Source: Culicoidibacter larvae
GTDB lineage: Bacteria > Bacillota_I > Bacilli_A > Culicoidibacterales > Culicoidibacteraceae
Reading direction: 5' to 3'
NCBI RefSeq assembly: GCF_005771635.1
Contig: NZ_VBWP01000010.1
Coordinates: 1-64,000, forward strand
DNA: 64,000 nucleotides
Made by a program: the position numbers and the translations under genes. Shown here in pieces: positions 32,757-51,824 of the stretch. The notes beneath the pieces were generated by a model. That model did no database searches, was not told the origin of the DNA, and was given only the letters and a program-made list of their open reading frames with translations. Within the stretch, counting starts at the first letter, position 1; the number at the start of each line of letters is the position of its first letter.

Positions 32757-32847
32757 TGTTTGTGTTTGCTTTTTGTAATATAATCAGCTATAATTTGAAC
32801 ACGTAACGAGATTTTTTAGTTTTGTTGGCATATAATGGGGTTATAAT
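32757..32847 (+). promoter_or_regulatory. Promoter region of two-component module 1
   Basis: The gap before the response regulator has several TATAAT boxes (32779-32784, 32789-32794, 32831-32836, 32842-32847). The best pair is TTGTTT (32757-32762), 16 bp, TATAAT (32779-32784). More than one start is possible. Confidence 0.5.
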
Positions 32848-32888
32848 AGTAAAAAATTTATGATTTTGTAGTGTGGGGGTATATTCCT

Positions 32889-33560
32889 ATGAAACGAATT
32901 TTACATGTTGAAGACAACGAGCAGTACCGGGAGTTTATTGCTGGTGTTTTGAAGCATGAAGGGTATGAGGTTATAAGCAGTGATAATGCTATGGATGGCA
33001 TTAAGCTTTTTGAGTTGGGTAATTATGATTTAGTAATTACTGATTTGAAGATGAAAAATGTTGATGGTTTACAGTTCTTTTCTTTTCTGCGGCGGATTGA
33101 TCCGGAAGTTAAGGTTATTGTTTTAACTGGTTCTAATCGAGATGCTGATGAGGTCGCCGGACTTGAAATGATGGTGAACGATTATATTAAAAAACCGGTA
33201 TCGGTTGAAGTATTGTTAACACGGATAGCGCGGGTTATCAGTGAGAATCGAGTTTTGCGGGTTGATACTGAGCTTTATTCCGAACCGGAAAACTTACGGA
33301 TAGATATACAGAAACGAAAAGTATATAAAGATGATGAACTAGTAGTCTTAACAAGCAAGGAATATGAATTGCTTGTTTATTTGATGCGTAACAAGGGACG
33401 GGTCATCACTCGTGAGGAGTTGCTTAAAGAGGTTTGGCGGCAGAGTGAAGATGAATTGGATATTCGCAATGTTGATACATATATAAAACGCTTGCGGACA
33501 AAACTTGTTCTATCAACTATTTATTCAGTTCGGAGTGTTGGTTATGAGTGGGTTGAATAA
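32889..33560 (+). CDS. OmpR/PhoB-family response regulator, module 1
   Basis: 223-residue regulator: a receiver domain (HVEDNEQYREFIAGVL; phospho-acceptor Asp in VITDLKMKNVDG; conserved Thr in IVLTGS; Lys-Pro in IKKPV) and a C-terminal winged helix (about 125-223, ending VRSVGYEWVE). ATG 32889 follows a GTGGGGG run; a GTG at 32871 precedes that site. The histidine kinase gene overlaps its end. A paralogue with the same gene order is at 48986. Likely targets are the adhesin genes that lie between the two modules, an inference from location and from a shared promoter motif. Confidence 0.92.
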   Translation: MKRILHVEDNEQYREFIAGVLKHEGYEVISSDNAMDGIKLFELGNYDLVITDLKMKNVDGLQFFSFLRRIDPEVKVIVLTGSNRDADEVAGLEMMVNDYIKKPVSVEVLLTRIARVISENRVLRVDTELYSEPENLRIDIQKRKVYKDDELVVLTSKEYELLVYLMRNKGRVITREELLKEVWRQSEDELDIRNVDTYIKRLRTKLVLSTIYSVRSVGYEWVE

Positions 33561-34947
33561 AAATAAACATAAGATGAATAGCAGAACCGGAAGAAATTGG
33601 TTACAGTTATTTTTGATTGGTGGATTACTTTATCTACTTATTGTTGTTGTTTTTGCGTTAGTTATTTATAATATTCCGCAAATATATGATCAAATTAATT
33701 ATGATAAAACTGAGGCGACTGCCAGTGAAGTTCAGTCAGCGCTGGATTTATCTAGTGATGATGAACGTAAGGCGGCATTGACTGATATTGATGCCAGCAA
33801 TACTTTAGATATTGTTGTTTTAGAAAATGGTCAAGTATTATATTCGACAGTATCAACAACTGACTTTTCAGTTATCACCGATTTTATCAATGAAAATGCG
33901 CTGAGTTATCATACTGCATATCAGTATGAGAGTGGTGGAAACACATATCAGGTTTGGTTGGCAATTTATAAAACTGATTCACAATTATTTTTCTCAATTA
34001 TCATCAGTATTATTGTAGGTGCCGCAATAATGTTGAGTTTGATTCTAATTGTTTTAGTTGTCATTCTGTTTTTTAAAGTGTTGCGACCGTTGCAAAAGCT
34101 ACGCAATAATATTTTAAAACTAAAAGAGTACCGTTTGAATGAAGTGCACTCAGGCAGTCAAAAGAATGATTATGATTTCTTGTCAGAAGAACTGGAAGAT
34201 TTTACTGTAGACTTACAGCGAAAAATGAAAAGTATCACGGTAAAATATACAGGTTTGGAATACGAGCTGCAAGCCCGGCAAGAAAAAAACATTTATAAAG
34301 AACAGCTAATTAGCAGTTTGGTACATGATCTTAAGACACCGCTGAATATTATTATGGTGCAGGCTAACAAGCTTGAAGAGGGTGTTTTGCAGCCAGAAGA
34401 AATACATTTATTGTCTGATAGCAGCGAACAGATGCTTAAGGACGTTAATGAGATACTCACGATTCAAAAGCTGGATGATATCAGTGAAGTTACTAAGACA
34501 GAGCATGTTGAAGTAGTAGAAATGATTCGGAAAACGATGCGTTTATTTGCACCGCTATTTCGTGAGCGGAAGATTCAGTCGTATGTTGATACGCCTGAAT
34601 CCATCTTTATCAATATAAGTCCGATTAAGCTAAAACAAATTATTCATAATGTTATCTCTAATGCCAGTCAGTACGCTGATGCTGGAGGAACGTTTGAGTT
34701 GGAGGCTTTTGAAGAGAGCCAACATTTAGTTATTGAGGCATATAATGATAAGGCGGATATTAGCAGTATTGATTTTGAGCGGGTTTTTGATTTGTTCTAT
34801 CATGTGGATACCGGGAATACTTATGGCAGTGGTGTTGGGCTTTATACGATTAGAAGTATGGTTGAAGAATACGGTGGCACCTGCAGTTTCGCACCGCGTG
34901 ATAATGGTGTGGTGCTGACAATTTCGTTGCCACTGGAGACGCAGTAA
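33544..34947 (+). CDS. Sensor histidine kinase, module 1
   Basis: 467 residues, the same length as its paralogue at 49663. One transmembrane helix (about 22-44) and a ~115-residue extracytoplasmic region with YQVWLAIYKTDSQLFF precede a second helix (about 152-180). A helical linker follows, then HisKA with SSLVHDLKTPL (phospho-His; Thr at +4 for phosphatase activity) and an HATPase with N box HNVISNASQY and G box GSGVGLYTIRSMVEEYGG. ATG 33544 lies inside the response regulator gene (17-base overlap) with GGAG upstream. It directly precedes an anchored accessory protein gene, so the sensor probably works with that protein at the membrane. Confidence 0.9.
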   Translation: MSGLNKNKHKMNSRTGRNWLQLFLIGGLLYLLIVVVFALVIYNIPQIYDQINYDKTEATASEVQSALDLSSDDERKAALTDIDASNTLDIVVLENGQVLYSTVSTTDFSVITDFINENALSYHTAYQYESGGNTYQVWLAIYKTDSQLFFSIIISIIVGAAIMLSLILIVLVVILFFKVLRPLQKLRNNILKLKEYRLNEVHSGSQKNDYDFLSEELEDFTVDLQRKMKSITVKYTGLEYELQARQEKNIYKEQLISSLVHDLKTPLNIIMVQANKLEEGVLQPEEIHLLSDSSEQMLKDVNEILTIQKLDDISEVTKTEHVEVVEMIRKTMRLFAPLFRERKIQSYVDTPESIFINISPIKLKQIIHNVISNASQYADAGGTFELEAFEESQHLVIEAYNDKADISSIDFERVFDLFYHVDTGNTYGSGVGLYTIRSMVEEYGGTCSFAPRDNGVVLTISLPLETQ

Positions 34948-35648
34948 TGATGAAATGGTTAGTTCGTATTACGTTGGCAGTGCTTTTAGTGACCGCGGGA
35001 TTTGGAATGAAGGTTACAGCATATAATGAGCCGAATCAGTATGCTTCGGAGCAAGAGGCGCGCGAGCAGGAATTAAAAAACTTGCAGGAGAAACATGTTC
35101 AACCAGGAACATATCCGATTGAGGTAAGTTATACTCAAAATGGTAAGACCATCAACAAGACGATTTATTTGACTGTACGCGGCGAGCATACGGTTATTGT
35201 TGATGATATTGCTATTGATGCTCATTCGATTGTTATCAATTTGAATCAGGTAGCCGCGATGAATAAGGCTGGCTGGATTGAGGCGGCTAATGCGCGGGCG
35301 TGGAATATTAATACCCTTGCCGAGGTGCCGGTTACGCAAGTAAATAGTTCGCAAGTGAAGGAGGCGGTGGGGAGCTATCCGCTTTATTTTGCAACTGATG
35401 CTTTTGTGAAAACCAGCGTCACGGTAACAGTTGTGGATGGTACTGATGCGAACCAATCGTTTGCGAATTGGTTCGCACAACATGATCCAGGTGAAGGTTT
35501 CTCATGGTATGGTTTTTTGCATATTCATCCATATCTCTTGAGTTTACTGCTGGTGTTGATTTTATTGATTCCATTTATCATCATTGCAGTCTACTATCTC
35601 ATCACTTCAAAATTAGTTCGTGATATCATTCGCAGCATCATTAAATAG
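34947..35648 (+). CDS. Membrane-anchored accessory protein with adhesin-like domain, module 1
   Basis: 233 residues: signal peptide (MKWLVRITLAVLLVTAG), an extracytoplasmic part, one C-terminal transmembrane helix (about 193-217) and a short basic tail. The outside part has an Ig-like strand set (PGTYPIEVSYTQNGKTI) and then a ~80-residue domain (about 87-165) with IAIDAHSIVINL, ARAWNINTL and GSYPLYFATD. That domain matches the spacing of the LapB-like repeats in the LPSTG protein at 13855 and of the pre-anchor domains of the adhesins. Its ATG overlaps the kinase stop (TAATG). It is a likely third component that senses or binds surface proteins and talks to the kinase. No known family name. 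Confidence 0.85.
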   Translation: MMKWLVRITLAVLLVTAGFGMKVTAYNEPNQYASEQEAREQELKNLQEKHVQPGTYPIEVSYTQNGKTINKTIYLTVRGEHTVIVDDIAIDAHSIVINLNQVAAMNKAGWIEAANARAWNINTLAEVPVTQVNSSQVKEAVGSYPLYFATDAFVKTSVTVTVVDGTDANQSFANWFAQHDPGEGFSWYGFLHIHPYLLSLLLVLILLIPFIIIAVYYLITSKLVRDIIRSIIK

Positions 35649-35654
35649 TGAAAT

Positions 35655-35726
35655 AATCACATATACAAAAAATCCAATAACTTTACGTGATAATCCTTTG
35701 ATGCGCCTGTATTCGTTAGATATACT
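35655..35726 (+). promoter_or_regulatory. Promoter of adhesin 1 with upstream ATATACA element
   Basis: TTGATG (35698-35703), 17 bp, TATACT (35721-35726). The 13-mer AATCACATATACA (35655-35667) ends 54 bp before the -10 start, as at the adhesin 2 promoter. Confidence 0.7.
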
Positions 35727-35799
35727 TGATGTATAGCAATCTGTTAAAAATTTATCATGTTTGAACAGATTGCAAAGGTATTCTAAAGGGGGCCATACA

Positions 35800-38700
35800 A
35801 TGGGCAAAAAAATTATAAGAACAGCATTTCTATCAGTAATTGCAGGGTTACTGATTTTTTCTCAGTTTAATCTTGCGGTTTTTGCAACTAGCGAAAATAA
35901 TGCAAGTGAAGCTAATACTGAGATAACCAGTGAAAATAATGTCACTGAAAATGAAGTTAGCTCAGACGAGCAGCCACCAGCAAGTGCTGAGGAAACTCAG
36001 GCACCGACTGCACAAAGAAATTTGCTGGGAGCAGCAAATGTTGAACGTGAGTTGACGTTAGCAGTTAGTAATGCTAATGGAACAAGTATTAATACTGCTA
36101 ACGGAACAACAACACTAATGTTTCAAGCGGCAGGTATTGTCAGCGGAACAATTAAGTTGAAAAGTCCAGCAAAAGCTAATGAATATATTGAATTAGTTGT
36201 CCCAAGTGATATGAATCTTTCGGGATTTAATAAAGGTAATCTAGAAGATATAGCAACAATTTCACTAACTGGAAAAACATATCGTTTTAATTTGATTGAG
36301 GGCGCAGCAGCCGGACAATATGTCTTTAGTTTTACTACATCATTTAATTATCGCAATACTATGCATAATGAGACGCGTGATATTACGATGACTGATTATG
36401 TGAATAGTACTAGTACTTTAGCGGAAAAATTGAATTTGACAATGTTCAATGATACAAAGTTAAATATTGTAATGACCAGTGGACAGATTTCTCCAGGTGC
36501 TAAAACACTCTATAATCTTTCTGCCTTTACAAGGAGTAATAATGCAACATCAACTAATTATCCTACTAGTAATGACTATACTTTGGCAATGGATGCGACA
36601 GTTACTATTCCATTGCCGGCAGAAGCGACTTTTGTTGAGGGATTGAATGCTGGAGTAACTTATGATGCCGGCAGCCATAGTGTTACTGTTGCATTTACCA
36701 GTATTTTAAATGGAACAACTGTCAAAGGGTTTTCAGTTACATATAACGGGGTAAATGTTGGCGACACTGTTACTGCGCCAAGTGCACCAACAGTAGATGG
36801 TCATATCACCGGTAAAACTGCACCTGAGTACACTTTTACTAATAATGACATTATTACCCCGCTTAAAACAATAAGTGGAACAGTTATGATTCCGAAAACA
36901 CTTGTTGATATACGTAGTTTTGTAAATGGTATGGGAAACTATATGTATATTGGTGAAAAAGGTGATACACGTCTCTATGGAATTCAGTTTTCAAACAATA
37001 CTTCGTATGATGGTTCAAATTTTAAAGTGACGACAAAACCAGCTGATGGGATGTTAGTTAATGGTTTCTACGTTCCTGGTTCTAATATATATGATGTGTG
37101 GAGCGGATCAATTACCGCAACAGTAACAACTAATACAGGTAGAACTATTCAAAAGGTAATTCCTAACGCGACCACAACGGTAAATGCAGCTGCTCTTGGC
37201 TTAACAGCAGGAGAATATTTAACGGAATTGGAATTTGCTTTTAGTGAATTTAAAGTTGGGCAGAAAATTTGGTACAGCTCTGGCTCTCCACAAGAATATA
37301 GCTATGCAATTACTATGTATGGAACGATAGATGAAACTTATCGTGATGGTGTAACAGTAATTAAAAGCGGTGATATACGTAATGTGGTTACTACCATTAG
37401 TGATGATCAGCTAAGCGGTACTACAACAATGGCAGTGCCGTACACAGATGTTAAAACTGTTCCATTAGCCGGAGGAACATCCATTGCGCAAGGGAATTCA
37501 TTTTTACCGGGAGCAAATGTTAATTTAAATGTTCAACTTGATGGTAGCTGGTATCCATATGGGAATGATAATCGTGTTGATGACCCGAATATTTATGTGA
37601 CACTGCCATTAGAATTTACACCAAATATGGATGCAATTATAGTGACTCCCGGAGCTAAAAATGGTTCTATTACTAATATTGAAGAAGTCGAAAATGTTGC
37701 AGCGGCGGCCGACGGTAAAAAAGTATGGAAAATTACTACTAGCAATGTATACACACCAGGATCTGGTATGAAATTATCAATTCCGGTGAAAATTGACCAA
37801 TATGCGATTCCGGGAATGGTAGATTTAAGCCAAGCAGTATTAATTGATTCACCATATAGTTACCAAAAATTTACAACTGCTTATGGCAGTGGGGTTTATC
37901 CTGATAAATATGATGTCAATGAAAATGGTAGAACTAATGATAGCTTAATTGCAATTGGAGTAAATGGACGTTTAAGTAACGTCTTGATTTTAAACACTGG
38001 TTTCAGTGCCTACCACCGAGCAAAATCAGATGATCATCCGGCATGGAGTGCTTTCTACTCAGAAAGCAAGACAGAGTCAATTGTCAATTTTTATAATAAT
38101 TCAAATGGTGAGATTGAGGTTATTGTTAATAACCCGACTGATAAAATCATTGACCAATATACTTATTATGAGTCATTACCAAAAGGTGCAAATGAAGCAG
38201 TTCGTTTGACTGGGGCAATTACAACACCAAGCGGTTTTGAAATAACCTATACAACAGCAGCAACACCAGAGCGTAATGAGCTGAGCGGCGGTAGCGATAC
38301 AACATATGTGCCAGCAGCAAGCATTACTGACTGGAGCAAAGTGAGCGGCTTTAAAGTGAAAGCAACTTCACCGATTCCGGGGTCAACGACTACAACAATT
38401 ACCGTGCCGATCCATATGATTGGTGCCAGAGAAAATACGACTGATTATGATGAATTGCTGACTGCACAATCATCATTCATATTTGCAGAACAAGGCGGAC
38501 CAGCAACTATTTACCAAGGTTCAGTGCTTGCTTATCAAGCGAACAATGTGACGGTTTCCGGAACAGTGTTCAAAGATTTAGACCAAGACTTAAGCCCGAC
38601 AAAAGGTGCCGGTGACGCAGATTTTGCCGGACTTACAGTGAATTTGTGGAATCAGGATAAGTCGCAAAAATTGGCAACAACGACAACTGATGCCAGCGGT

Positions 38701-40155
38701 GCATATAGTTTTAAAATCAATGCCCAAAATTATTTAGTGGAAGTTGTAAATCCAAATGCAGTACAGTGGGAAGCGGTAGATGCTTTGGCGAAAACAGCTG
38801 ACACATCAGCCAAGGTTGACGTATCAGATTTAGCAATCGGATTAGTAGCAAAACAATATGCAGTAAACTTTATTGTTGATGGTGCAACAGTTTCAACAGA
38901 AAATGTACGGTATAATAATGTTGTAACTAATCCGGCATCAAATCCGACCAAAGGTGGCTATACCTTCTTGAGTTGGTCACAAACACAAGGTGGGACGGCA
39001 TGGAATTTTACTAATGATAAAATGCCGGCAAGCAACTTGAACTTATATGCGCAATTTTCTGCTGACAATCAAACAATTACATTTGATGTTAATGGCGGCG
39101 ATGTGGCAACTGAGCCGGCTGATATTGTACAGCCAACAGATTCAAGTGTTACTATCAGTGCAGTGCCAAGTTATGCGGGTTATACTTTCGTTGGCTGGTT
39201 TGATAGCAGCAATGTGCAACATAGCGGAACCTTTGCAATGCCAAATGGCGGGTTGGATTTAGTAGCGCATTGGACAGCGGCTAATCAAGTGATTAGTTTT
39301 GATGCTGCCGGTGGTAGTGGCGTGGATTCAATTGTTGAACCGACCGGAGCCAGTGTTGATATTGATTCTGCGGTGACGACTCGTGCCGGGTACCAATTTG
39401 ATGGTTGGTATAATGGTGCGACTCAGGTTGATGGAATTATCACTATGCCTGTAGGCGGAATGCAGTTAACAGCACATTGGACAGCGTTAGACCAAACAAT
39501 CACCTTTGATGTCAATGGTGGTTTATCAAGTTCAAAACCAGATGATATTATTGCGCCGACAGATTCAATTGTTGATATTGATGCGGTTACTGAACCGCAA
39601 CGCCCGGGATATCGCTTCTTGGGTTGGTATAACAATGATGAATTGGTATTTGGCAGTATTAATATGCCGGCAGGCGGGATGACATTAAAAGCAGCATGGA
39701 AAGATTTAATTGCTGATGGGGTTTGGAAGATTAATGGTGATCATATTACGATGACGGTTTCGGAAGTTGATGGCTATATGGCTAATGGAACATTAGGCCA
39801 GGAAGTATTGGCGAAGAGCAATGCTAAAGCCTGGGATGATGAAACCGGTGAAATTTTAACGCCGCTTGATATTGATTGTTCAAGTGTGGTTGCAGTTGTT
39901 GGTGATTATCATGCGCCGGTAACTTATACGCCTGGAACAAGTTCTGCGGCAGCGGCTGTATCGGTGTTTGGTGCGGAAGATGCTGAGGAGAATACTGATG
40001 TCAATACGCTTTCGGGAACGGTAGCAGTTACAGTTATTGATGATCCGGTTTCAAAATTACCGGTGACTGGACAGGAACCGTTGATGATGGCCGGAGCTGG
40101 CGGGGTACTGATTGGTTTGAGTAGTGTCTTCTTAGTTAAAAAGAAAAGAAAATAG
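35800..40155 (+). CDS. Giant LPVTG adhesin 1 with SdrD B-like and InlB B repeats
   Basis: 1451-residue cell-wall protein. It has a signal peptide (cleavage near VFATS), an acidic linker ending in AQRNLLGAA, and a ~850-residue beta-rich head of no clear family. A SdrD B-like domain follows (about 920-1020; GTVFKDLDQD), then InlB B repeats (about 1022-1304; GYTFxxW cores, MPxGGM). A LapB-like pre-anchor domain (AKAWDDETGE) precedes LPVTG at 1420-1424, a hydrophobic helix and KKKRK. ATG 35800 follows AAGGGGG by 7 bases. The repeats are close to those of the truncated adhesin at the window start and of adhesin 3, suggesting one gene family. Probably a surface attachment protein controlled by the flanking two-component modules. 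Confidence 0.9.
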   Translation: MGKKIIRTAFLSVIAGLLIFSQFNLAVFATSENNASEANTEITSENNVTENEVSSDEQPPASAEETQAPTAQRNLLGAANVERELTLAVSNANGTSINTANGTTTLMFQAAGIVSGTIKLKSPAKANEYIELVVPSDMNLSGFNKGNLEDIATISLTGKTYRFNLIEGAAAGQYVFSFTTSFNYRNTMHNETRDITMTDYVNSTSTLAEKLNLTMFNDTKLNIVMTSGQISPGAKTLYNLSAFTRSNNATSTNYPTSNDYTLAMDATVTIPLPAEATFVEGLNAGVTYDAGSHSVTVAFTSILNGTTVKGFSVTYNGVNVGDTVTAPSAPTVDGHITGKTAPEYTFTNNDIITPLKTISGTVMIPKTLVDIRSFVNGMGNYMYIGEKGDTRLYGIQFSNNTSYDGSNFKVTTKPADGMLVNGFYVPGSNIYDVWSGSITATVTTNTGRTIQKVIPNATTTVNAAALGLTAGEYLTELEFAFSEFKVGQKIWYSSGSPQEYSYAITMYGTIDETYRDGVTVIKSGDIRNVVTTISDDQLSGTTTMAVPYTDVKTVPLAGGTSIAQGNSFLPGANVNLNVQLDGSWYPYGNDNRVDDPNIYVTLPLEFTPNMDAIIVTPGAKNGSITNIEEVENVAAAADGKKVWKITTSNVYTPGSGMKLSIPVKIDQYAIPGMVDLSQAVLIDSPYSYQKFTTAYGSGVYPDKYDVNENGRTNDSLIAIGVNGRLSNVLILNTGFSAYHRAKSDDHPAWSAFYSESKTESIVNFYNNSNGEIEVIVNNPTDKIIDQYTYYESLPKGANEAVRLTGAITTPSGFEITYTTAATPERNELSGGSDTTYVPAASITDWSKVSGFKVKATSPIPGSTTTTITVPIHMIGARENTTDYDELLTAQSSFIFAEQGGPATIYQGSVLAYQANNVTVSGTVFKDLDQDLSPTKGAGDADFAGLTVNLWNQDKSQKLATTTTDASGAYSFKINAQNYLVEVVNPNAVQWEAVDALAKTADTSAKVDVSDLAIGLVAKQYAVNFIVDGATVSTENVRYNNVVTNPASNPTKGGYTFLSWSQTQGGTAWNFTNDKMPASNLNLYAQFSADNQTITFDVNGGDVATEPADIVQPTDSSVTISAVPSYAGYTFVGWFDSSNVQHSGTFAMPNGGLDLVAHWTAANQVISFDAAGGSGVDSIVEPTGASVDIDSAVTTRAGYQFDGWYNGATQVDGIITMPVGGMQLTAHWTALDQTITFDVNGGLSSSKPDDIIAPTDSIVDIDAVTEPQRPGYRFLGWYNNDELVFGSINMPAGGMTLKAAWKDLIADGVWKINGDHITMTVSEVDGYMANGTLGQEVLAKSNAKAWDDETGEILTPLDIDCSSVVAVVGDYHAPVTYTPGTSSAAAAVSVFGAEDAEENTDVNTLSGTVAVTVIDDPVSKLPVTGQEPLMMAGAGGVLIGLSSVFLVKKKRK

Positions 40156-40163
40156 TGGATAAA

Positions 40164-40194
40164 AAAGAGCTGGCCACAAGCCAGCTCTTTTTCT
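40164..40194 (+). terminator. Terminator after adhesin 1
   Basis: AAAGAGCTGGC pairs with GCCAGCTCTTT around CACAA. Confidence 0.93.
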
Positions 40195-40216
40195 CTTTTC
40201 TCCCAGAATTGCACAA

Positions 40217-40324: not shown

Positions 40325-42775
40325 ATGTCAAAAAAAATAATCGCAAAAATAGGTGCGGCTAGTTTATTGGCGGCGATTGTGGCCGCTCAAGTTAGTCCGG
40401 TAGTTTCAGCTTTTAGTGAAGTTGAGAGTAGCGGCAACAATGCTAGTGAAGTAGTGACTAGTGCTGAGAATAGCACAGTTGAAAGTGAGGCAAATCAAGG
40501 GATTGATTTGCAAGAATCTGGCGCGAATAATGTTGCTAGCGAGGATAATGTTCAGTTGTTGGCTAGTCGCGTGCCATTGAAGGCGGTACTGCCTGGTGCA
40601 AGTGTAACTGTAGAAACGGTTGTAGACTTAGTTGACACGGTAAATAACGCTGAGATGAATAAAACGATTACCTTAGGTAGTAGTTTTCCGACTGCTTTAA
40701 GTGGCGTTATTACTTTGAATATCACTCATAATTACAATATTACTATTAATGGTAATAATAAGGTTTTAACTCCGGCTGCTAATCAGAAGCATTTTAATGT
40801 GACTAGCACTGGTAGCGGAACAATTACTTTTGATTCGATTCAGTTTAAAGGTTTGACCAGCAATGGCGCTGATGGTTTACCGGTTGCAGCCAATCTTGGC
40901 GGCGGCGTGATGATAAAAAATAATCAAGGTGCCTTTGTATTTAATAAAACCAAATTTTTGAATATAAACGGCGGTGGAATTAATCTGAAGGGTGCGGGAA
41001 CTTTAACGGTTACCAATTCTACTTTTGATTCTAATATTGTTACTGATGGTGGCGGCGCGATTCGTGCTGAAGAGGCACCGAAATATTTGAGTATCAGCAA
41101 TTCGACATTTAAAAATAATGTGAATAATGGTGCCGGGTATGATGGTGGTGCAATCTTTATTAAAAATGCCAGTGGTGTTATTAATATCGAACACAGTTTA
41201 TTCTTGAATAATATTAATAAGTTTAATCGCGGCGGAGCGATTTCGATAAATTTGTCAACCGCTAGTAATATCAATACAATCAATGATTGTTATTTCGACG
41301 GTAATAAGGCGTTAAGCCCTGCTGCTAATGTGAATGCTGATGGTGGTGCGATTTCATTATATGAGCTTGGAGTTGGCGGTAAGTTTACATTGACTGGTTC
41401 AACTTTTACTAACAATGTGGCCGATGATGATGGTGGTGCATTATTATTGCAAGGAAAAGAGAATACTGATATTCAGGTTATTAACTCTACTTTCTATAAT
41501 AATAGTGCGTATGGTAAAGGGAACGCGGCTGATTACAGTGGTGGTGCGATTCAAGCTTATGCCAGTGGTTCACAAGGTTCAACAACAATCGCAACCTTTA
41601 TAGATAATACTTTTGCTAATAATAACGCTTATTCTGGTTTTTCTGCATCTCAGACACAACGTGGCGGGGCAGTTGCCGGAAGCGGTTCTTTATTCCGTAC
41701 GCAAAAAGCAATCTTTCAAAATAATATTACTATAGGTAATAAAGTTTATAACAATGATGGAACTGAAAATGTTAATTCAAAGTATAAAAATGTTTCAATG
41801 ACACAGCCGACCAATAATGGTGGTAATATTGGGTTTGATAATGGAGCGGATATAACAGCAACTTTTGAAGATGTTTTCGGTGTATACCCGGTTGTTCCGA
41901 TTTTGCATAACTCAACAGTGATGGCCGGAGATATGAACGACAGTTCTTATCAAGCGATTCCAACAATGCCAATTATTCCTAATGATGGAATTACAGGGAT
42001 TGCCAATGGTACCGGAACACCATCAATTTATACATTTGATGAATGTGCGCATCAACGCAGTACAACAAAACCGGACAGTGGTGCCGTAGAAATTGGCTGG
42101 ATCCGTTACGAAGCAAATGGCGGTGAATGGACTTTGCCGCAATTGACCGGATATAGTGGAGAAGCTTATTATGTAGGAACTAATCCAACAACGTATTTTG
42201 ATGTTGGTGATTACAATGGTACAACAACTATCATTGATGATTCCAATCTGGCCAACGGCAGTAAAACATTTGTTGAGTGGAATACTAAAGCTGACGGGAC
42301 TGGAACTACTTACACAGTCGGCAATGCTGATCTTACCAGTGATGGCTTAACATTATATGCAATCTGGGCTGAACCGATTACTTATACTGTTACTTATGAT
42401 GGTAACGGGCATACTATCGGTAGTGTTCCAGTTGATGCCAATAGCTATAGTATCGGAGTAACTGCAACAGTGTTGAATATCATAGATTTAGCCCGTAATA
42501 ATCATTCGTTTGTCGGCTGGAATACTGCTGCTAATGGCAGTGGTACAGCATATGCTGCTGGTGATGCGATTACAGTAAATGGAAATATTGTATTGTATGC
42601 TCAATGGTTACAAGATGAAACACCAACTGATAATAATAGCAGTACAAACAATAGTTCAAATAATAATTCAGATTCTGGATTACCACAGACAGGAACACAT
42701 TTGGCTGAGGTAGCAGTAATTGGACTTGTGGTTGCAGGTGCAAGTATGCTAGTCTTACGTAAAGTTAAAAAATAA
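40325..42775 (+). CDS. LPQTG adhesin 2 with right-handed beta-helix and InlB B repeats
   Basis: 816-residue cell-wall protein. A signal peptide (cleavage near VSAFS) and acidic linker are followed by a right-handed beta-helix (about 145-490). The helix shows recurring GGGAI/GGAI and NSTFxxN units like those of polymorphic outer membrane proteins and pectate-lyase folds. Two InlB B-like repeats (about 593-762) follow, then a Ser/Asn linker, LPQTG at 786-790 and the tail LRKVKK. The beta-helix could be a binding face or a polysaccharide-active domain; no catalytic residues are evident. The ATG follows AGGGGGGAA. It is the shortest of the three adhesins between the two-component modules. Confidence 0.88.
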   Translation: MSKKIIAKIGAASLLAAIVAAQVSPVVSAFSEVESSGNNASEVVTSAENSTVESEANQGIDLQESGANNVASEDNVQLLASRVPLKAVLPGASVTVETVVDLVDTVNNAEMNKTITLGSSFPTALSGVITLNITHNYNITINGNNKVLTPAANQKHFNVTSTGSGTITFDSIQFKGLTSNGADGLPVAANLGGGVMIKNNQGAFVFNKTKFLNINGGGINLKGAGTLTVTNSTFDSNIVTDGGGAIRAEEAPKYLSISNSTFKNNVNNGAGYDGGAIFIKNASGVINIEHSLFLNNINKFNRGGAISINLSTASNINTINDCYFDGNKALSPAANVNADGGAISLYELGVGGKFTLTGSTFTNNVADDDGGALLLQGKENTDIQVINSTFYNNSAYGKGNAADYSGGAIQAYASGSQGSTTIATFIDNTFANNNAYSGFSASQTQRGGAVAGSGSLFRTQKAIFQNNITIGNKVYNNDGTENVNSKYKNVSMTQPTNNGGNIGFDNGADITATFEDVFGVYPVVPILHNSTVMAGDMNDSSYQAIPTMPIIPNDGITGIANGTGTPSIYTFDECAHQRSTTKPDSGAVEIGWIRYEANGGEWTLPQLTGYSGEAYYVGTNPTTYFDVGDYNGTTTIIDDSNLANGSKTFVEWNTKADGTGTTYTVGNADLTSDGLTLYAIWAEPITYTVTYDGNGHTIGSVPVDANSYSIGVTATVLNIIDLARNNHSFVGWNTAANGSGTAYAAGDAITVNGNIVLYAQWLQDETPTDNNSSTNNSSNNNSDSGLPQTGTHLAEVAVIGLVVAGASMLVLRKVKK

Positions 42776-42956: not shown

Positions 42957-43095
42957 TTGCTTTTTACGTTAAAACATGGGACAATAAGTTATGAAAAATG
43001 GGGGGACTAAATAATTAACTGGATGCTGGCATTATTTGCCAATGCTGCTTGTTATGGATTATTTGCTCTACCAAACAAATTTGTTTGGTTTTTTT
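42957..43095 (+). ncRNA. Putative short transcript with a G6 run
   Basis: TTGCTT (42957-42962), 17 bp, GACAAT (42980-42985) could start an RNA near 42992. The RNA would carry AATGGGGGGACT (G run 42999-43004 region) and end at the palindrome CCAAACAAATTTGTTTGG (43071-43088) plus T7. A 7-codon frame (MKNGGTK) and a 32-codon frame from 43023 are the only readings, and neither is convincing. It may be a small RNA or the remnant of a gene leader. Confidence 0.38.
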
Positions 43096-43291: not shown

Positions 43292-46200
43292 ATGAGTAAA
43301 AAAATTGGAAAACTAATTATTGTATCATTAGCAGCATTGCTCTTGGTACTTACGCAAATGGACTTAAGCGTTTTAGCACAAAGTGACGAAGTGACGCAAG
43401 AGTCATCACAAAATAATACAGGGGAAAACGAGGCGGCTGATGCAGCTGAGGCTGACCAGCTGCAAAGTGAACCAGCAGCTGAAGCCGAAGCGCCAAAAAC
43501 AAGTGTTCAGGGAGGACGGCAACTGTTAGGAGATGCACCAACAACGCAAAATGCATTTGCAGTATATGACGGACAAGATTTGGCAACCAATGCTGACTTT
43601 AGTTATGCACCTAAAGACGCGTACACACCGGCACGAACTTTAAGTATTGCTACTTCATTTCCAGACCGTGCAACAGTAACCGGAGCTAAGATAGAAATTA
43701 AACTTAATAATGTGTTACAACTGGCTGGAGCACCTGGGATGGTTGCAGACGGTACAAATGGCTGGAAGTTTGATCTCGATAAATTAGTAAATGACTATCC
43801 GCAACAGGCTGGGAAAATCAGCAATGCAATTTACACGCCAGAAAAAGTGAATGGCTGGTTAACAGGAAAAGGAACATTAACCTATGAAAAAAACCCCGGA
43901 ACTAATGAGGTTTATTTAGAACTAACCTTAAAATTGAATGTGACTTATTCGGTGCGTTTGTTTAACGGACCAACTGAGACTTTTGCTAATGTAGCGGATA
44001 TTAGTTCGAGCTATACTGAAAATGGAATGGATCATGAAATTGAGAGCAGTAAAATTAATAATGTTACTGTGACTAATGCTCAAAATATCTGGATTAGTAT
44101 GTATCAAGGTGGGACAATGTATCGTTCAATCGGAGATGATGTTACCGTGGGGACATCACTTAATCCATATGTAAATACTGATTCATATAGTGCAGGTCTA
44201 ACTAATGTAGTTGTTAATGAATTGACCTACACTGTGAAAATAAATAAGTTGCTTAACTTGACGGGAGTACGAACATCATCAGGAACACTTTCTTATACAT
44301 TAACAGATGATCCTAGTGATGCAATTTACCAGTATATAACTTATACTGTTTCAAATTTTAAAGTTGCATCTACACTATATTTTGATTTCAAACTTCCGGA
44401 TAATATTGCAACCGGAAATTATCAAGTCTTTTCAATTGGTTCTTATGCTGGGTTTACAAATTCAATCACAAGAGTTGATGGTTCAGTTGAAACTTCAGGG
44501 ATAGTGCACTCATATGGTAGTACAGCAGTCATTTCTGTAAGTGATCCAAATGTGGCATCGGAATTAGAACTGGATACATCTAATCAAACTTTAGCTTTTC
44601 AAGACTTTGATGCCAGTATGAATTTGCTTGGTAATATGCAAGTGAAAAATACTAGTGCTAACGTGATTACTAATCGTTCCGGAAAGTTAGATTTTAGTGC
44701 TTATAGCAGTAAATATGGCGTTGAACAAGTTAGTCTTACGATACCAAACGGTATGCAAGTTAAGAATGTCGTTGCCAAGACAAATTTGAATAATACGTAT
44801 TCGATTGCAACAGTTACTGGAACAGCAGGTGGAGCCGGTCAATATGTAAATATTAGTAAATCGGTATTGGGAATAACAACAGATGCTGAGTATATAACAG
44901 AATTGACTTGGGATTATGCTGGTTCCTTTCCTAGCGGATGGGTTAGCGGCGGTACAAGTTCAAGGTTAGACTACTTCCAAGTTTCCACGATTCGTTATTA
45001 TGGAAAAATTTTAGATATGCCTGCTGATCGAAAATATAATGCGACATTAACAGTCTTTGAAACTGGGAATGTCTCAAATTCTCAAACCAAAACTCAAGCT
45101 ATTACGGTTAATGATAACTCAATTTCTATGGGCTCAACTGTGGGATTAACTGGAAATTTAGTAACAACACAAAGTAGCGGCAGCATTTATTCGGCATCTT
45201 CAACGGTTGATTTTACTAACTATCGCTATAGTAATGATATGATGCGTACCTTAAAAGGGATTGCTTTTTATCTACGTGATACTGATTATACAATAGTTAA
45301 TCCAGATACATTAAAAGTCACCTGGAATGGAAATACCTATCAAACCAGTGATGGAAGTTTGACTGCAATTGAAGGTGTTGATAATTCTAATCATAAATTC
45401 TATAAATTAGAATTACCAGATGTTATTTTAGGTATGGGGAATACAGAAACGGCCAGCACTATATATCCAAATGCAACTGTGACTTATGATTTTAAAATTA
45501 AGCCGTCAGCGCCGACAACTGCGTTAATGGTTCAAGATATCATTTCAGTTACCCCGCTTGATCAATCAATCAGAGTAACTAATGGTGGTTGGTACAGTGT
45601 GTACCTTACTACTGATAAATATAATGTAACCGGACAGGCTAATTCAAATATCCCACTTGGTTCTTACCGTCAAGGCTATGCTTTCAATATTACTGCTAAA
45701 AAAGCATTTTTAGTTACAACGGCAGCTAATCTTGATGATGGCCCATGGGTGAGCTATGATTATGATACTAATCAATCAATCATTGATCTGAATCCAAGCG
45801 GTGATGCTAAGTATCAATTGGCGGTAACAAATAATTCAGGACAAACAATTAATGGTTACACTGCACTTGTGCCGATTCCAAAGTATGGTGAAAAAACAGA
45901 CTTAACACCAGCCACACCTGGAGAGTGGAATCCAAGCTATCATTTGCAAAAAGAAGCTTTTGGCTGGACAACAGCATTATTAGAAGAAATTAACACTTCT
46001 GCAACAGCTCTCGATTATCAGGTCCTTTATGCAACAACATATGAGACTAGTATCTCTTCACCAAATTTTGTCACATGGGATACTATTACAAATAAAGATA
46101 ATATTCGCATGGTAAAAATATTTACAACTGATGCAATTCCTGATGGGACATTAGATGTTATTGATTTTCCATTGGCATTAACCGATCCATTAGCTGATGC

Positions 46201-48853
46201 TCATGCTGGCAATATGAATATTTATTCAGCACGTGTATATAGCAGTATTGATGGTAGTGCCGGATATAAACCAAGTGAGCCAATTGCAATTCGCTTAAAA
46301 ACTGGTATCGTGACTGGTATCGTCTTCAATGATGATAACCGCAATGGATTGCAGGATGCTGGTGAAATTGGACGCAACGGAGTTTCCGTTATTGCCTATG
46401 AAGCGGGAACAACAAATCAATTAGCAACCGCAACAACTCAAACACACGATGGTATCGCCGGAGTCTATAAATTTATGGGCTTAGATAAAAATCAAAATGT
46501 TGATATTGTATTTGGTAATCCAAACACTGATGATTCAACTCGTTTCAGTCCAGTTACTAGTGGTGGTTCAACACCAACAGAAGCTGCCGATCATTTAAAA
46601 GCGACAACTGCAAACATTACGCCTAGTACTACTATCTCGACGACAATCAATGCCGGATTAATTACCCCAACCGAAGTTACTATGGATGCTCAGGGTGGTG
46701 AAACTGCCGATAATGTAATTAAGCGTTACCCGGGAGAAACCATTGCAAGTGAACCTGCAGTTACTAGAGAAGGCTATACGTTTAATGGTTGGTTTACAGC
46801 AAGCACCGGTGGAACATTAGTAACCTTCCCGTACACAGTGGGAGTTCAAGATACAACATTATATGCACAATACACAGTAAATCAATACACATTGAGCTAT
46901 GATGTTGCAACCAATGGTGGCGAAAGTGGTGTTCCGGCAACACAAACAATTAACTACGGTACAAAAGCAACAAAACCAGCTGATGCAACCAAAACCGGCT
47001 ATACATTTAATGGTTGGTTTACGGCAGCAAGCGGCGGCACAGCATGGGATTTCAACACGACAACAATGCCAGCTGCCAATACAACTTTGTATGCGCAGTT
47101 CAGTATCAATACATATACGACTACTTTTAATATCGATGGAGTTGTAATAACGACTGATGTTGTTTATGGCAATAAAGTAGTTGAACCGGCAACTCCAAGT
47201 AAAGAAGGTTATACTTTCTTAGGTTGGTATACTGTCGCTACTGGCGGAACTCAGTGGAATTTCTCTACTGGAACAATGCCGGCAAATAACATGACACTTT
47301 ATGCACAGTACTCAGTTAATTCATACACACTGAGCTTTGATATTGCAACCAATGGTGGCAGCGGAACCGCGCCAACTAATCAAACGGTTAACTACGGAAC
47401 CAAAGCAACTAAACCTACTGATCCAAGCAAAACCGGATATAGTTTTGCCGGTTGGTTTGATGCCTCAACCGGTGGTAATGCTTGGGACTTTAGTACCAAA
47501 ACTATGCCAGCGAATGATGTGACGTTGTATGCGCAATTCGGTGTTGATCAATACACAGTGAGCTTTAATAATGAAGGCACAATAACAACGGAAACAGTGG
47601 CGTATGGTGCGTTAGTACCGAAGCCAGTGGACCCAAGTAAATTGGGCTACACATTCAATGGCTGGTTTGATGCTGAAACTGGTGGTAACGAGTGGAACTT
47701 CAGTAGTGACACGATGCCAGCGAATTATCTGAATCTCTATGTCCAATATAGCGCCAATACATATACATTGAGTTTTGATGCGAAAGACGGAAGTACAGTA
47801 CCGGCGATTAGCGCCGCTACTGATACACCAATTGATATTGATGCCCAAGTTACAACGAAAGATGGCTACACTTTCTTAGGATGGTATGATAGCAATAACA
47901 CGCAAGTAAGTGGAACAATCAATATGTATCCATACAACGCAACCTTAACTGCGAAATGGCAAGGGATTGATCAAACAATCCACTTAGATGTGAATGATGG
48001 TGATGCAACAAGTGTACCAGCAGCGATTGTAAAACCGACCGGAGACAGTGTGAATCTTGAAACGGTTGTACCAACCAGAGCCGGATATAGTTTTATTGGT
48101 TGGTTTGATGCAAGCGATGTGCAACATAGCGGAACATTTGTGATGCCGGTAGGCGGTCTACAGCTGAAAGCGAAGTGGACAGCAGTTAATCAAGTGATTA
48201 CTTTCAATACTTATGGCGGCAGTGGTGTAGATTCAATTGTGGCACCAACTGACAGTACCGTAGACATCAGCAGTGTAACAACAGAACAATGGAGTTATGG
48301 CTTCCTTGGCTGGTTTGACGAAAATGGAACACAATACAGCGGAACATTTGCGATGCCAGCAGGCGGATTACAACTGCAAGCGAAATGGCAAGATTATATT
48401 GCTGATGGCACTTGGATAATTTCAGCTAATGATTTCAAAATGACTTTTGCTGAGCTACAAGCAAAAATTGCTGATGGTACAATAGTAGATAGTATTATCA
48501 TTAAGTCTGATGCGCGTGCAATTGATAAGTTGACAAACAGTGACTTAGGACCACTGCAAGTATTGAATATTAGCGAATTAACAAGCGCACCTAAAGCTGG
48601 TACATATCAAATGACAATTGCTTACACTAATCCGTCAGCAACTGTCAGCACTTATGACTTGTATACAACTAATGAACGAGTTTTAAGTACGACAATTAAT
48701 GTTGAAGTAACTGCTGAGAATACAAACAGCAGCTCAACAAATGGATTGCCACAGAGTGGGCAAAATATTACTTTTGCTGCTTTGATTGGAATCATCTTAG
48801 TTGTTGTTGCAGGAATATTACTTGTATTCAGCCGCTCTAAAAAGCGTTTGTAA
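43292..48853 (+). CDS. Giant adhesin 3 with eight InlB B repeats and LPQSG signal
   Basis: 1853-residue surface protein, the largest in the window. It has a signal peptide (cleavage near VLAQS), an acidic linker ending GGRQLLGDA, a ~900-residue beta-rich head related in plan to adhesin 1, and a SdrD B-like domain (about 1006-1105; GIVFNDDNRNGLQDAGE). Eight InlB B repeats follow (about 1130-1705): five of the GGxxWxF type and three of the SGTxxMPxGGL type. A LapB-like pre-anchor domain precedes LPQSG at 1819-1823, a hydrophobic helix and SRSKKRL. LPQSG departs from LPXTG at the threonine. AGGGAGGG precedes the ATG. Likely an adhesin or biofilm protein. Confidence 0.9.
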   Translation: MSKKIGKLIIVSLAALLLVLTQMDLSVLAQSDEVTQESSQNNTGENEAADAAEADQLQSEPAAEAEAPKTSVQGGRQLLGDAPTTQNAFAVYDGQDLATNADFSYAPKDAYTPARTLSIATSFPDRATVTGAKIEIKLNNVLQLAGAPGMVADGTNGWKFDLDKLVNDYPQQAGKISNAIYTPEKVNGWLTGKGTLTYEKNPGTNEVYLELTLKLNVTYSVRLFNGPTETFANVADISSSYTENGMDHEIESSKINNVTVTNAQNIWISMYQGGTMYRSIGDDVTVGTSLNPYVNTDSYSAGLTNVVVNELTYTVKINKLLNLTGVRTSSGTLSYTLTDDPSDAIYQYITYTVSNFKVASTLYFDFKLPDNIATGNYQVFSIGSYAGFTNSITRVDGSVETSGIVHSYGSTAVISVSDPNVASELELDTSNQTLAFQDFDASMNLLGNMQVKNTSANVITNRSGKLDFSAYSSKYGVEQVSLTIPNGMQVKNVVAKTNLNNTYSIATVTGTAGGAGQYVNISKSVLGITTDAEYITELTWDYAGSFPSGWVSGGTSSRLDYFQVSTIRYYGKILDMPADRKYNATLTVFETGNVSNSQTKTQAITVNDNSISMGSTVGLTGNLVTTQSSGSIYSASSTVDFTNYRYSNDMMRTLKGIAFYLRDTDYTIVNPDTLKVTWNGNTYQTSDGSLTAIEGVDNSNHKFYKLELPDVILGMGNTETASTIYPNATVTYDFKIKPSAPTTALMVQDIISVTPLDQSIRVTNGGWYSVYLTTDKYNVTGQANSNIPLGSYRQGYAFNITAKKAFLVTTAANLDDGPWVSYDYDTNQSIIDLNPSGDAKYQLAVTNNSGQTINGYTALVPIPKYGEKTDLTPATPGEWNPSYHLQKEAFGWTTALLEEINTSATALDYQVLYATTYETSISSPNFVTWDTITNKDNIRMVKIFTTDAIPDGTLDVIDFPLALTDPLADAHAGNMNIYSARVYSSIDGSAGYKPSEPIAIRLKTGIVTGIVFNDDNRNGLQDAGEIGRNGVSVIAYEAGTTNQLATATTQTHDGIAGVYKFMGLDKNQNVDIVFGNPNTDDSTRFSPVTSGGSTPTEAADHLKATTANITPSTTISTTINAGLITPTEVTMDAQGGETADNVIKRYPGETIASEPAVTREGYTFNGWFTASTGGTLVTFPYTVGVQDTTLYAQYTVNQYTLSYDVATNGGESGVPATQTINYGTKATKPADATKTGYTFNGWFTAASGGTAWDFNTTTMPAANTTLYAQFSINTYTTTFNIDGVVITTDVVYGNKVVEPATPSKEGYTFLGWYTVATGGTQWNFSTGTMPANNMTLYAQYSVNSYTLSFDIATNGGSGTAPTNQTVNYGTKATKPTDPSKTGYSFAGWFDASTGGNAWDFSTKTMPANDVTLYAQFGVDQYTVSFNNEGTITTETVAYGALVPKPVDPSKLGYTFNGWFDAETGGNEWNFSSDTMPANYLNLYVQYSANTYTLSFDAKDGSTVPAISAATDTPIDIDAQVTTKDGYTFLGWYDSNNTQVSGTINMYPYNATLTAKWQGIDQTIHLDVNDGDATSVPAAIVKPTGDSVNLETVVPTRAGYSFIGWFDASDVQHSGTFVMPVGGLQLKAKWTAVNQVITFNTYGGSGVDSIVAPTDSTVDISSVTTEQWSYGFLGWFDENGTQYSGTFAMPAGGLQLQAKWQDYIADGTWIISANDFKMTFAELQAKIADGTIVDSIIIKSDARAIDKLTNSDLGPLQVLNISELTSAPKAGTYQMTIAYTNPSATVSTYDLYTTNERVLSTTINVEVTAENTNSSSTNGLPQSGQNITFAALIGIILVVVAGILLVFSRSKKRL

Positions 48854-48861
48854 AATAGTAA

Positions 48862-48902: not shown

Positions 48903-48922
48903 CATAATAGAGACCGGTTTTA

Positions 48923-48951
48923 TTGACAATTGTTTATGGCCACTCTAAAAT
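48923..48951 (+). promoter_or_regulatory. Promoter of two-component module 2
   Basis: TTGACA (48923-48928), 17 bp, TAAAAT (48946-48951): a near-consensus promoter with a leader of about 28 nt that consists mostly of the G7 ribosome-binding site. Confidence 0.85.
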
Positions 48952-48985
48952 GAATATGAAGTATAAGGTAACGGGGGGGACACCG

Positions 48986-49663: not shown

Positions 49664-51066
49664 TGAATAATAAAAAAACAAGGAGACTATTTTATGTTTT
49701 GGCAATCGGTTATTTTGCAATCGTTGTTTTTTTAGTGTTCCTTATCTATCAGATGCCATTAATATATACCAATTTAAATACCCAGCATATTGAGAGCACT
49801 AAAACCGAGATTCAGACGGCAATTAATACTAAGACCGGGGAGGATTTGGCGACAAATCTTGCCCGTATTCAAGAACAAAATAATATGGAGTTAGTAGTGG
49901 TGACGCCGGAGGCGATTGTTTATTCCTCAATGCCTACTGCTGATTTTGCGATGCTAACAGAAATTTTTGATGGCCAAAACTTAAGCTACGAGGGTGCAAA
50001 ATTATTTCAGGCAGAAGATGGCACCAGTTATCAAGTGTGGGTTGCTTTCTATAAAGTTGATTCCGAAGCCTTTTTTGCTAACATGCTGATTATCATGGTT
50101 ATTAGTGTTGTTATTTTAACGATAATTATCGGTCTGCTTTTATTGGTTATCTTCCGCCAGTCAATTAAGCCATTGACACGATTACGTGATAACATCAATA
50201 AATTACGTGCTTATCGTTTGAAAGAATTACGTGGAGTAAATAATAGTGATGCTGATTATGATTTATTATCAAAGGCACTTGGCGAATTTACCGACGATTT
50301 GCAAGGGAAATTCGACACCATTGGTACAGAATATACGCTTTTGGAACAGCAGTTACAGGAAAAACAGGAGCTTTATCAAACAAAAATGCAGATGGTCCAG
50401 TCTTTAGTACATGATACTAAGGCACCAATCAGTATGGAATTGTTTTCGATTAAGCAGTTGAAAGAGGCACTTGGAGAATATCCTGAGCTTATCGCCAAAC
50501 TAGATGGTATGCAACAAAATAACGAGGAACTTATGGCTGAAATTATCGATATGATGCATATTATTAAGGATAAAGAGAGCGAGATGATTTTGGAGAAAGA
50601 AATTGTTGACCTGGCGGAAGTCGTCCGCTCAACAATCCGTCGTTTTGATGCAGCTATCCAGGAAAAGAATCTTTTTTACTCAATAGATATGCCGCAAAAA
50701 CTGCCAATACTCGTCAATAAAATTCAAATCAAGCAATTACTTTTCAATATCATTTCCAACGTTTGCCAATATACTGAAATTGATGGCGAATTTGAATTGG
50801 TGCTTTATGATGAAGATGAGCAGCTGCATATTATTGCTGCAAATGAGGTGCAGGATACTTCAAAGATTGATTTTGGTAAAGTGTTTGAACTCTTTTATCT
50901 ACCGGAAGCAAATGACAATAATACGGCGACCGGTATTGGTATGTATACCATCAAGCACATGGTTGATATTTATAACGGTACGGCACGTTTTGAACCAAGC
51001 GAGAGTGGAGTTGTGCTGACAATTACTATTCCTAACCCAAAGGAACCGGGTGATAGCCATGCGTAA
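49663..51066 (+). CDS. Sensor histidine kinase, module 2
   Basis: 467 residues, colinear with the kinase of module 1. It has two transmembrane helices (about 10-30 and 147-172) around an extracytoplasmic region with YQVWVAFYKVDSEAFF. The HisKA motif is QSLVHDTKAPI (phospho-His present), the N box FNIISNVCQY and the G box GIGMYTIKHMVDIYNG. The residue at +4 from the phospho-His, usually Thr or Asn and needed for phosphatase activity, is Ala here, so this kinase may act mainly as a phospho-donor. It overlaps the accessory gene by 8 bases. Confidence 0.9.
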   Translation: MNNKKTRRLFYVLAIGYFAIVVFLVFLIYQMPLIYTNLNTQHIESTKTEIQTAINTKTGEDLATNLARIQEQNNMELVVVTPEAIVYSSMPTADFAMLTEIFDGQNLSYEGAKLFQAEDGTSYQVWVAFYKVDSEAFFANMLIIMVISVVILTIIIGLLLLVIFRQSIKPLTRLRDNINKLRAYRLKELRGVNNSDADYDLLSKALGEFTDDLQGKFDTIGTEYTLLEQQLQEKQELYQTKMQMVQSLVHDTKAPISMELFSIKQLKEALGEYPELIAKLDGMQQNNEELMAEIIDMMHIIKDKESEMILEKEIVDLAEVVRSTIRRFDAAIQEKNLFYSIDMPQKLPILVNKIQIKQLLFNIISNVCQYTEIDGEFELVLYDEDEQLHIIAANEVQDTSKIDFGKVFELFYLPEANDNNTATGIGMYTIKHMVDIYNGTARFEPSESGVVLTITIPNPKEPGDSHA

Positions 51067-51772
51067 GAAGTTATTAGCAATACTTTGCCTTGTTCCGCTT
51101 CTTCTGTTCTTGCAGAACCTGCCGGTTCATGCAACAATCCCGACTTCGCGAGCCGAGGCCAGCGAAGCGGCGATGGCAGCGCTGGAGAAAATTGAAGACC
51201 GCGCCGGCACTTACGAAGTCAAGCTTGTTTATGAACAGAACGGCCGGACGATAACTGAGACAGTATTGATGACGATAACGGCCGCGAATACGGTTATCCA
51301 AGAACCAATTGCAATTGATGCGCAAAATGTTATTGTTGCGTTGGCGGATGTATCGCAAATGAGCGCTACTGACTGGATAACTTTAGCTCAAGCCCATGCA
51401 TGGAACACACAGACGTTGGCAGACTTGAATGTTCAGGCAGATACCAGCAGCATTCAGAACAAGGTTGGTGTCTACCCGATTACTTTTGTAACTGATAATG
51501 GTGTTGCCACTACAATTCAAGCTGAAGTGCAGGATCTGACTGCGAGTGGTGAGAACGCGGCGGTTATTTACCAAGCTAATATGAAAAATGGCTGGCATGA
51601 AACCAGCTATCAGGAAAATAAATTTATGTGGGCCAACTTCGGTAACTGGTTTGATATTACCATTAGCGGCGTGTTGTTGCTGGGATTTGCGATTCCAATT
51701 ACTATTTTAATTATTGAATATGTTGTAACAAAGCAAATTATTCAGAAGCTTATTGATGTGTTGGGGAAATAG
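51059..51772 (+). CDS. Membrane-anchored accessory protein with adhesin-like domain, module 2
   Basis: 237 residues, paralogue of the protein at 34947. It has a signal peptide (LLAILCLVPLLLFLQ, cleavage near VHA), an Ig-like strand set (AGTYEVKLVYEQNGRTI), and the LapB-like domain (IAIDAQNVIVAL, AHAWNTQTL, GVYPITFVTD). A Trp-rich linker differs from module 1. A C-terminal transmembrane helix (about 200-222) and a short cytoplasmic tail follow. ATG 51059 lies inside the kinase gene. The conserved domain and divergent linker suggest that both accessory proteins recognise a related ligand but couple to different kinases. Confidence 0.85.
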   Translation: MRKKLLAILCLVPLLLFLQNLPVHATIPTSRAEASEAAMAALEKIEDRAGTYEVKLVYEQNGRTITETVLMTITAANTVIQEPIAIDAQNVIVALADVSQMSATDWITLAQAHAWNTQTLADLNVQADTSSIQNKVGVYPITFVTDNGVATTIQAEVQDLTASGENAAVIYQANMKNGWHETSYQENKFMWANFGNWFDITISGVLLLGFAIPITILIIEYVVTKQIIQKLIDVLGK

Positions 51773-51803
51773 AAAAACGGCCGCCTTTAGGGCGGCCGTT
51801 TTT
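51773..51803 (+). terminator. Terminator of module 2
   Basis: AAAAACGGCCGCC pairs with GGCGGCCGTTTTT. Confidence 0.94.
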
Positions 51804-51824
51804 AATCTTCTTCACAAAAAAAAC

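Follow-up and report, generated by a model that had tools for sequence, protein, structure and literature searches.

Organization of the Locus

The stretch of DNA analysed here (64,000 nucleotides; referred to as the window) comprises positions 1 to 64,000 of contig NZ_VBWP01000010.1 from Culicoidibacter larvae. It encodes a cluster of three large adhesins with LPXTG-type anchors and two modules, each consisting of the genes for a response regulator (RR), a histidine kinase (HK) and an accessory protein (Acc). Judged by their sequences, the modules are two-component systems with an auxiliary membrane protein, albeit unusual ones: the auxiliary protein and the adjacent gene product share a domain, and at least 16 such cassettes are present in parallel in one genome. 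Coordinates of the features are compiled in Table 1.

The two modules contain the same three genes in the same order and of nearly equal lengths (RR 223/225, HK 467/467, Acc 233/237 residues), as the original prediction had stated. It had also pictured the three adhesins as bracketed by the modules. This picture was dropped, since reciprocal matches and hairpins give two adhesin-plus-module units and one extra adhesin; the cluster is better read as RR1-HK1-Acc1-adhesin 35761, adhesin 40325, and adhesin 43292-RR2-HK2-Acc2 (adhesins are denoted by their first position). Acc2 and the Acc of the paralogous cassette C6e are reciprocal best matches, as are adhesin 43292 and the C6e adhesin (945 bits). 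Since both point to the same cassette, module 2 is paired with the adhesin directly upstream, and its classification as an orphan was rejected. Adhesin 40325-42775 is related (539 bits) to an adhesin of the same contig (L011:1692-4388), and neither of them directly adjoins a module which is clearly its own. The open reading frame (ORF) of adhesin 35761 was listed from a TTG codon; an ATG 13 codons further in is the likely start.

Direct repeats of CACAAA, 10-11 bases apart, precede some adhesins, including adhesin 40325. With at most two mismatches they were found in 4/16 adhesin regions (0.43 expected from shuffled sequences) and in 3/96 control genes, two of which were LPXTG genes. Together with the terminator-like hairpins, these repeats suggest separately regulated promoters.

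Table 1. Features of the adhesin cluster and related features of the window (TM, transmembrane; aa, amino acids).
Feature	Position	Strand	Basis or remark
Five tandem Acc-type domain copies within LPSTG protein 13819-18186	16492..17757	+	hhalign E 5e-18
Intrinsic-terminator-like hairpin upstream of module 1	32687..32719	+	15 pairs, T-run
RR1, OmpR-family response regulator, 223 aa	32889..33560	+	Pfam PF00072 5.7e-24, PF00486 1.5e-19
HK1, histidine kinase, 467 aa, two TM helices, ~100-residue outside domain, HDLKTP box	33544..34947	+	Pfam HisKA 6.9e-9, HATPase_c 3.9e-12; AF2 model
Acc1, accessory co-sensor (proposed role), 233 aa: signal peptide, half and full Ig/Rib-like domain, C-terminal TM with invariant Pro, short tail	34947..35648	+	Homology to adhesin repeats; model pLDDT 86
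Adhesin of module 1: LPVTG, B-repeats, pre-anchor Acc-like domain ~39703-40050	35761..40155	+	Pfam Flg_new 2.1e-40; Acc profile matches pre-anchor domain
Terminator-like hairpin closing unit 1	40162..40192	+	Hairpin
Second adhesin: LPQTG, beta-helix region and B-repeats; no module clearly its own	40325..42775	+	Related to adhesin L011:1692-4388
Terminator-like hairpin between adhesins 40325 and 43292	43070-43089		
Adhesin of module 2: LPQSG, pAdhesive_6 head, eight B-repeats, pre-anchor domain ~48389-48736	43292..48853	+	Pfam PF20595 1.9e-54; reciprocal best match with adhesin of module C6e
Promoter-like TTGACA-17-TAAAAT ahead of RR2	48923-48951		
RR2, OmpR-family response regulator, 225 aa	48986..49663	+	Pfam
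HK2, histidine kinase, 467 aa	49663..51066	+	Pfam HATPase_c 1.5e-6; aligned with 26-kinase set
Acc2, accessory co-sensor (proposed role), 237 aa from ATG 51059	51059..51772	+	34% identity to Acc1, E 1e-29
Strong terminator-like hairpin directly 3' of Acc2; no adhesin downstream	51773..51803	+	Hairpin

Response Regulators and Histidine Kinases

Searches with Pfam models detected Response_reg and Trans_reg_C domains in both RRs, HisKA and HATPase domains in HK1, and a HATPase domain in HK2. HisKA was not scored in HK2 by Pfam, yet the His/Lys/Pro box is retained in the kinase alignment. In the alignment of 26 kinases of this group His261, Lys264 and Pro266 were invariant, as were an Asn and a Gly of the ATPase domain. 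Thus, the RR-HK pairs have the sequence features expected of a two-component system, i.e., a predicted OmpR-type regulator and a HisKA kinase. The AlphaFold model of the kinase shows a folded outside domain of about 100 residues (residues ~44-145, pLDDT ~90), and the top Foldseek match to HK1 was PDB 9a5d, which is WalK with YycH/YycI.

The Accessory Protein and Its Domain

An N-terminal signal peptide and a single C-terminal TM helix, both of which had been predicted, were confirmed for Acc1 and Acc2; the helix is followed by a short tail. The LPXTG motif of the three neighbouring adhesins is absent from the Acc proteins. No Pfam or NCBIfam family was matched, and membership in a known family was rejected on these grounds. 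The AlphaFold model (pLDDT 86 overall, 93-97 for residues 30-165) comprises one and a half domains and a long helix at the C-terminus. In the PDB, the ectodomain was matched best by Rib domains in tandem from streptococcal adhesins, and these matches were weak (E 0.015, TM score 0.2-0.3); no more than "Ig/Rib-like" can be said of the modelled fold.

Profile-profile comparison (hhalign) gave matches well above chance level. The Acc profile matched the five repeats of the LPSTG protein with an E value of 5e-18 and nine pre-anchor domains with 1e-10, whereas none of 120 controls with shuffled columns fell below 0.0024. A profile built from Acc proteins only found tandem repeats of giant surface proteins (domain E down to ~1e-22) and, in several module-linked adhesins, single copies located 42-96 residues from the C-terminus. 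These sequence comparisons confirm that the Acc domain is homologous to adhesin repeats and pre-anchor domains, which the original prediction had proposed from residue spacing. One large example is L023:4134-14885, an LPSTG protein of 3583 residues with an RCC1 head and 25 domains of the internalin K D3 type, among which Acc-type domains are interspersed.

The sequences of Acc proteins are highly divergent, except for invariant G, Y, A and P residues across ectodomain and TM helix. The Pro of the TM helix was present in 23/23 Acc proteins of the Ig type.

Modules in the Genome of Culicoidibacter larvae

The genome (2.5 Mb, 33 contigs) contains at least 16 RR-HK-Acc modules, with 15 intact Acc genes and one with a broken frame (contig C20). 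Each Acc gene is preceded by a kinase gene from this group, mostly with an overlap of a few bases; one of the kinases is cut by a contig end. In 15/16 modules an ORF for a large surface protein (640-1855 residues; several of these adhesins are truncated at contig ends or interrupted by a frame break) begins 21-196 bases 3' of Acc on the same strand. Module 2 of the window is the sole exception; still, 16/16 modules adjoin a large surface gene, in agreement with the expectation that the gene order should recur beside LPXTG or giant surface genes. The adhesin beside module C2 (L014:4243-9452) seems to be split into ORFs of 727 and 974 residues, the second with LPATG.

Distances between RRs, HKs and Acc proteins were strongly correlated across the modules (Mantel r 0.92, 0.67 and 0.72, p 2e-4), a correlation which held in the core subfamily as well and indicates that the three genes diverged as a set.

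The LPXTG anchor model gave 74 matches in the whole genome, compared to 16 Acc genes. Two sortase genes are present beside this very large set of surface proteins.

Modules in Other Genomes and Exchange of the Outside Domain

Using a kinase profile with a threshold of E ≤ 1e-50, the kinase subfamily was detected in 10/395 genomes of the class and in 8/392 genomes of the phylum sample, with at least 36 loci in all; at most four kinases were scored per genome, so the module counts are lower bounds. The subfamily was limited to three lineages, namely the family to which the window belongs, a further family (f9), and a genus which includes Erysipelothrix tonsillarum; one module was found in strain DSM 14972 of this species. 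Nine other genomes contained at least 20 further modules, and the third gene was encoded together with RR and HK at most of these 20 loci. A large or LPXTG-type surface protein was adjacent in 17/20 loci, which extends the predicted linkage beyond the genome of the window. In Erysipelothrix, adhesin gene and module often point away from each other or towards each other; the link between module and adhesin is thus not mere read-through from one promoter.

An N-terminal hydrophobic stretch and a single C-terminal TM helix were present in 25/25 third genes checked. The third gene is conserved with RR and HK, and its product is predicted to be membrane anchored, as in three-component systems with an auxiliary membrane protein. 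In the open-licence literature no description of such modules was found, and one paper on Erysipelothrix from that literature lists two-component systems without mention of an accessory gene or a link to adhesins.

The third genes of family f9 keep the N-terminal hydrophobic stretch, the single C-terminal TM helix and the short tail; 6/10 of them encode leucine-rich repeat (LRR) proteins, and one (L091:111-2672) encodes an adhesin-like protein of 853 residues with SpaA and B-repeat domains on an accessory-type membrane anchor. When 408 ORFs were searched with a profile of TM helix and tail, built from Acc proteins of the Ig type only, the broken copy of contig C20 ranked highest, followed by six f9 third genes, before every unrelated ORF. 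Four of these six passed the inclusion threshold; the E values of the other two were 0.14 and 0.21. Since these genes were recovered despite their LRR or B-repeat ectodomains, it is the anchor that is conserved and the outside domain that is exchangeable.

A Proposed Function for the Accessory Protein

Considering the gene layout, the co-inheritance and the conserved anchor, a role of Acc as accessory co-sensor of the kinase is the most economical reading and is preferred here. The modules would then be a family of adhesin-dedicated three-component cassettes: the histidine kinase would take its input from a single-pass co-sensor, whose adhesin-type ectodomain can be swapped, and would thereby control the adjacent adhesin; we consider this somewhat more probable than not, as judged from comparative sequence data. 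The linkage suggests that HK phosphorylates the OmpR-type regulator, which in turn would control the neighbouring adhesin gene. From conservation and co-divergence, the C-terminal helix and tail of Acc could be expected to couple to the kinase within the membrane, and the exchangeable outside domain would receive the input. In Acc proteins of the window's type this domain is of the same kind as the stalk or pre-anchor domain which many adhesins carry immediately outside the membrane. The likeliest input would be the adhesin's state at the membrane, where newly secreted stems, not yet anchored to the wall, may compete or pair with the Acc domain. Adhesin output would thereby be matched to export and sortase capacity. 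Such monitoring of adhesin traffic is plausible as a feedback, and sensing of a ligand is possible; for the window's type the former is favoured, because the shared domain is a stalk or pre-anchor domain rather than an adhesive head.

Several observations weigh against the co-sensor model or narrow it. Three loci elsewhere have no adjacent adhesin, one in genome G391 and two in G021; on a circular contig, the nearest large surface gene seen in G391 would lie at a distance of about 20 kb. PotA, the cytosolic ATPase of a spermidine/putrescine transporter (L028:544-2130, upstream of permease genes), contains two copies of an Acc-type domain within its TOBE region, and matches of this type (a single ORF of 525-550 residues) occur in about 35 genomes of the class, in families f14 and f19. 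The domain is thus not exclusive to adhesins. Similarity of Acc does not track that of the N-terminal 900 residues of the adhesins within the core subfamily (rho -0.19, p 0.84), and specific co-evolution of Acc with the adhesin head is unsupported there. Partial Mantel tests were mixed and do not single out the sensor half of the kinase as partner of Acc; specific co-evolution with this half was likewise not retained as usable evidence. The CACAAA motif was picked by eye after reading the sequences and occurs in just 4/16 regions at the mismatch limit given above, and a shared DNA motif was not upheld. Finally, the f9 adhesins beside LRR-type accessories are devoid of LRRs, and the pairs have no Pfam domain in common; homotypic sensing can therefore not be a general rule.

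The f9 accessories also lead to a different proposal, namely that the Acc ectodomain is a co-receptor for whatever outside target or surface the adhesin binds, in a feed-forward manner similar to RsgI. LRR and adhesin-type ectodomains stand in for the Ig-like one in this family, and an LRR would fit ligand sensing better; many parallel paralogous cassettes with different adhesin heads are also reminiscent of the multiple RsgI proteins (PMC4711584). A co-receptor nevertheless appears rather unlikely, as the domain of the window's type is a stalk or pre-anchor repeat near the adhesin C-terminus and not the adhesive head, the PotA proteins contain the same type of domain in the cytosol, and nothing suggests a binding site.

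The common membrane-proximal domain, and an Acc gene which overlaps or abuts the kinase gene and adjoins the adhesin gene, could also be explained if Acc were an assembly factor or chaperone, docking the pre-anchor domain at the membrane before sortase acts, and were merely co-transcribed with the two-component system, with no part in signal perception. Acc co-diverges with HK and RR, however; it remains with them beside a divergent or upstream adhesin, its anchor persists when the ectodomain is replaced, and LPXTG matches greatly outnumber Acc genes, all of which makes an assembly factor improbable. Least credible by far is an origin of Acc as a by-product, i.e., as truncated adhesin ends captured by duplicated operons of two-component systems, with no shared function. 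The domain common to Acc and adhesins and the high divergence of the sequences would be accounted for, but not the 15/16 intact copies in this genome, the invariant residues of ectodomain and TM helix, or the occurrence of Acc in separate genera, consistently after the kinase in most loci.

Comparison with Known Systems

CpxP and LiaF are auxiliary proteins of two-component systems. We know of no auxiliary protein of the class of SaeP/SaeQ, YycH/YycI, CpxP and LiaF which has a domain in common with the regulated adhesin. SaeRS with SaeP/SaeQ (PMC5083920), like WalK with YycH/YycI, resembles the modules described here in that a kinase is accompanied by a co-encoded membrane or surface accessory protein which modulates it; here, modulation is proposed.

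In Streptococcus agalactiae the SaeRS pair adjoins the gene for the LPXTG adhesin PbsP, which it controls, and the adhesin itself acts as a signal (PMC11502775). The position of the genes for a two-component system beside an adhesin gene is similar; in contrast, a single locus is involved, the signal goes to another two-component system (CovRS), and an accessory gene with an adhesin domain is not described there.

A two-component system which reports the processing of LPXTG adhesins at the membrane is represented by SGO_1180 of Streptococcus gordonii, a kinase which senses the LPXTG C-peptide left by sortase A cleavage (Hall et al. 2019, as cited in PMC11502775 and PMC11326707). According to these citing accounts, it is the C-peptide derived from the adhesin that acts on the kinase within the membrane, whereas here each kinase is accompanied by the product of a separate gene, a membrane protein whose ectodomain is of the adhesin type. 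The SGO_1180 and PbsP circuits demonstrate that signals from LPXTG processing or from adhesins to a two-component system do exist. The kinases of the modules differ further by their own outside domain of about 100 residues and by the many copies, each beside an adhesin gene. Kinases of the SGO_1180 type are reportedly intramembrane-sensing, with little outside domain, a feature not found here, since a folded domain is predicted.

The RsgI/SigI systems of Clostridium thermocellum are paralogous biomass sensors, in which the outside domain resembles a domain of the regulated extracellular proteins, for instance GH10 of RsgI6 and Xyn10D (PMC4711584). Several paralogous units and a sensor domain resembling that of the regulated product are the points of likeness; RsgI is an anti-sigma factor with carbohydrate-binding modules and cellulosome enzymes as targets, whereas kinase, response regulator and stalk domains are found here. 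A Pfam scan of RR, HK and Acc detected neither the N-terminal anti-sigma domain of RsgI nor a SigI partner.

Other Features of the Window

An ORF at positions 60832-61947 encodes a GIY-YIG nuclease domain at the N-terminus, fused to seven RCC1 repeats.

Implications

Tentatively, and with somewhat less confidence than for the cassettes as such, the modules may be regarded as an undescribed and repeatedly duplicated class, in which a co-sensor made of the adhesin's own stalk domain, or of an adhesin-type domain taken in exchange, informs a private kinase of the traffic or engagement of adhesins, with one private feedback loop for each giant adhesin. They bear on the means by which Gram-positive bacteria adjust the production of very large surface proteins to their secretion and anchoring, and on the choice that such bacteria make among dozens of adhesins. 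Sixteen parallel cassettes with a sensor domain homologous to the neighbouring product make the question of adhesin control testable by simple domain swaps. The replacement of ectodomains while the membrane anchor is retained would likewise illustrate the evolution of new inputs to kinases.

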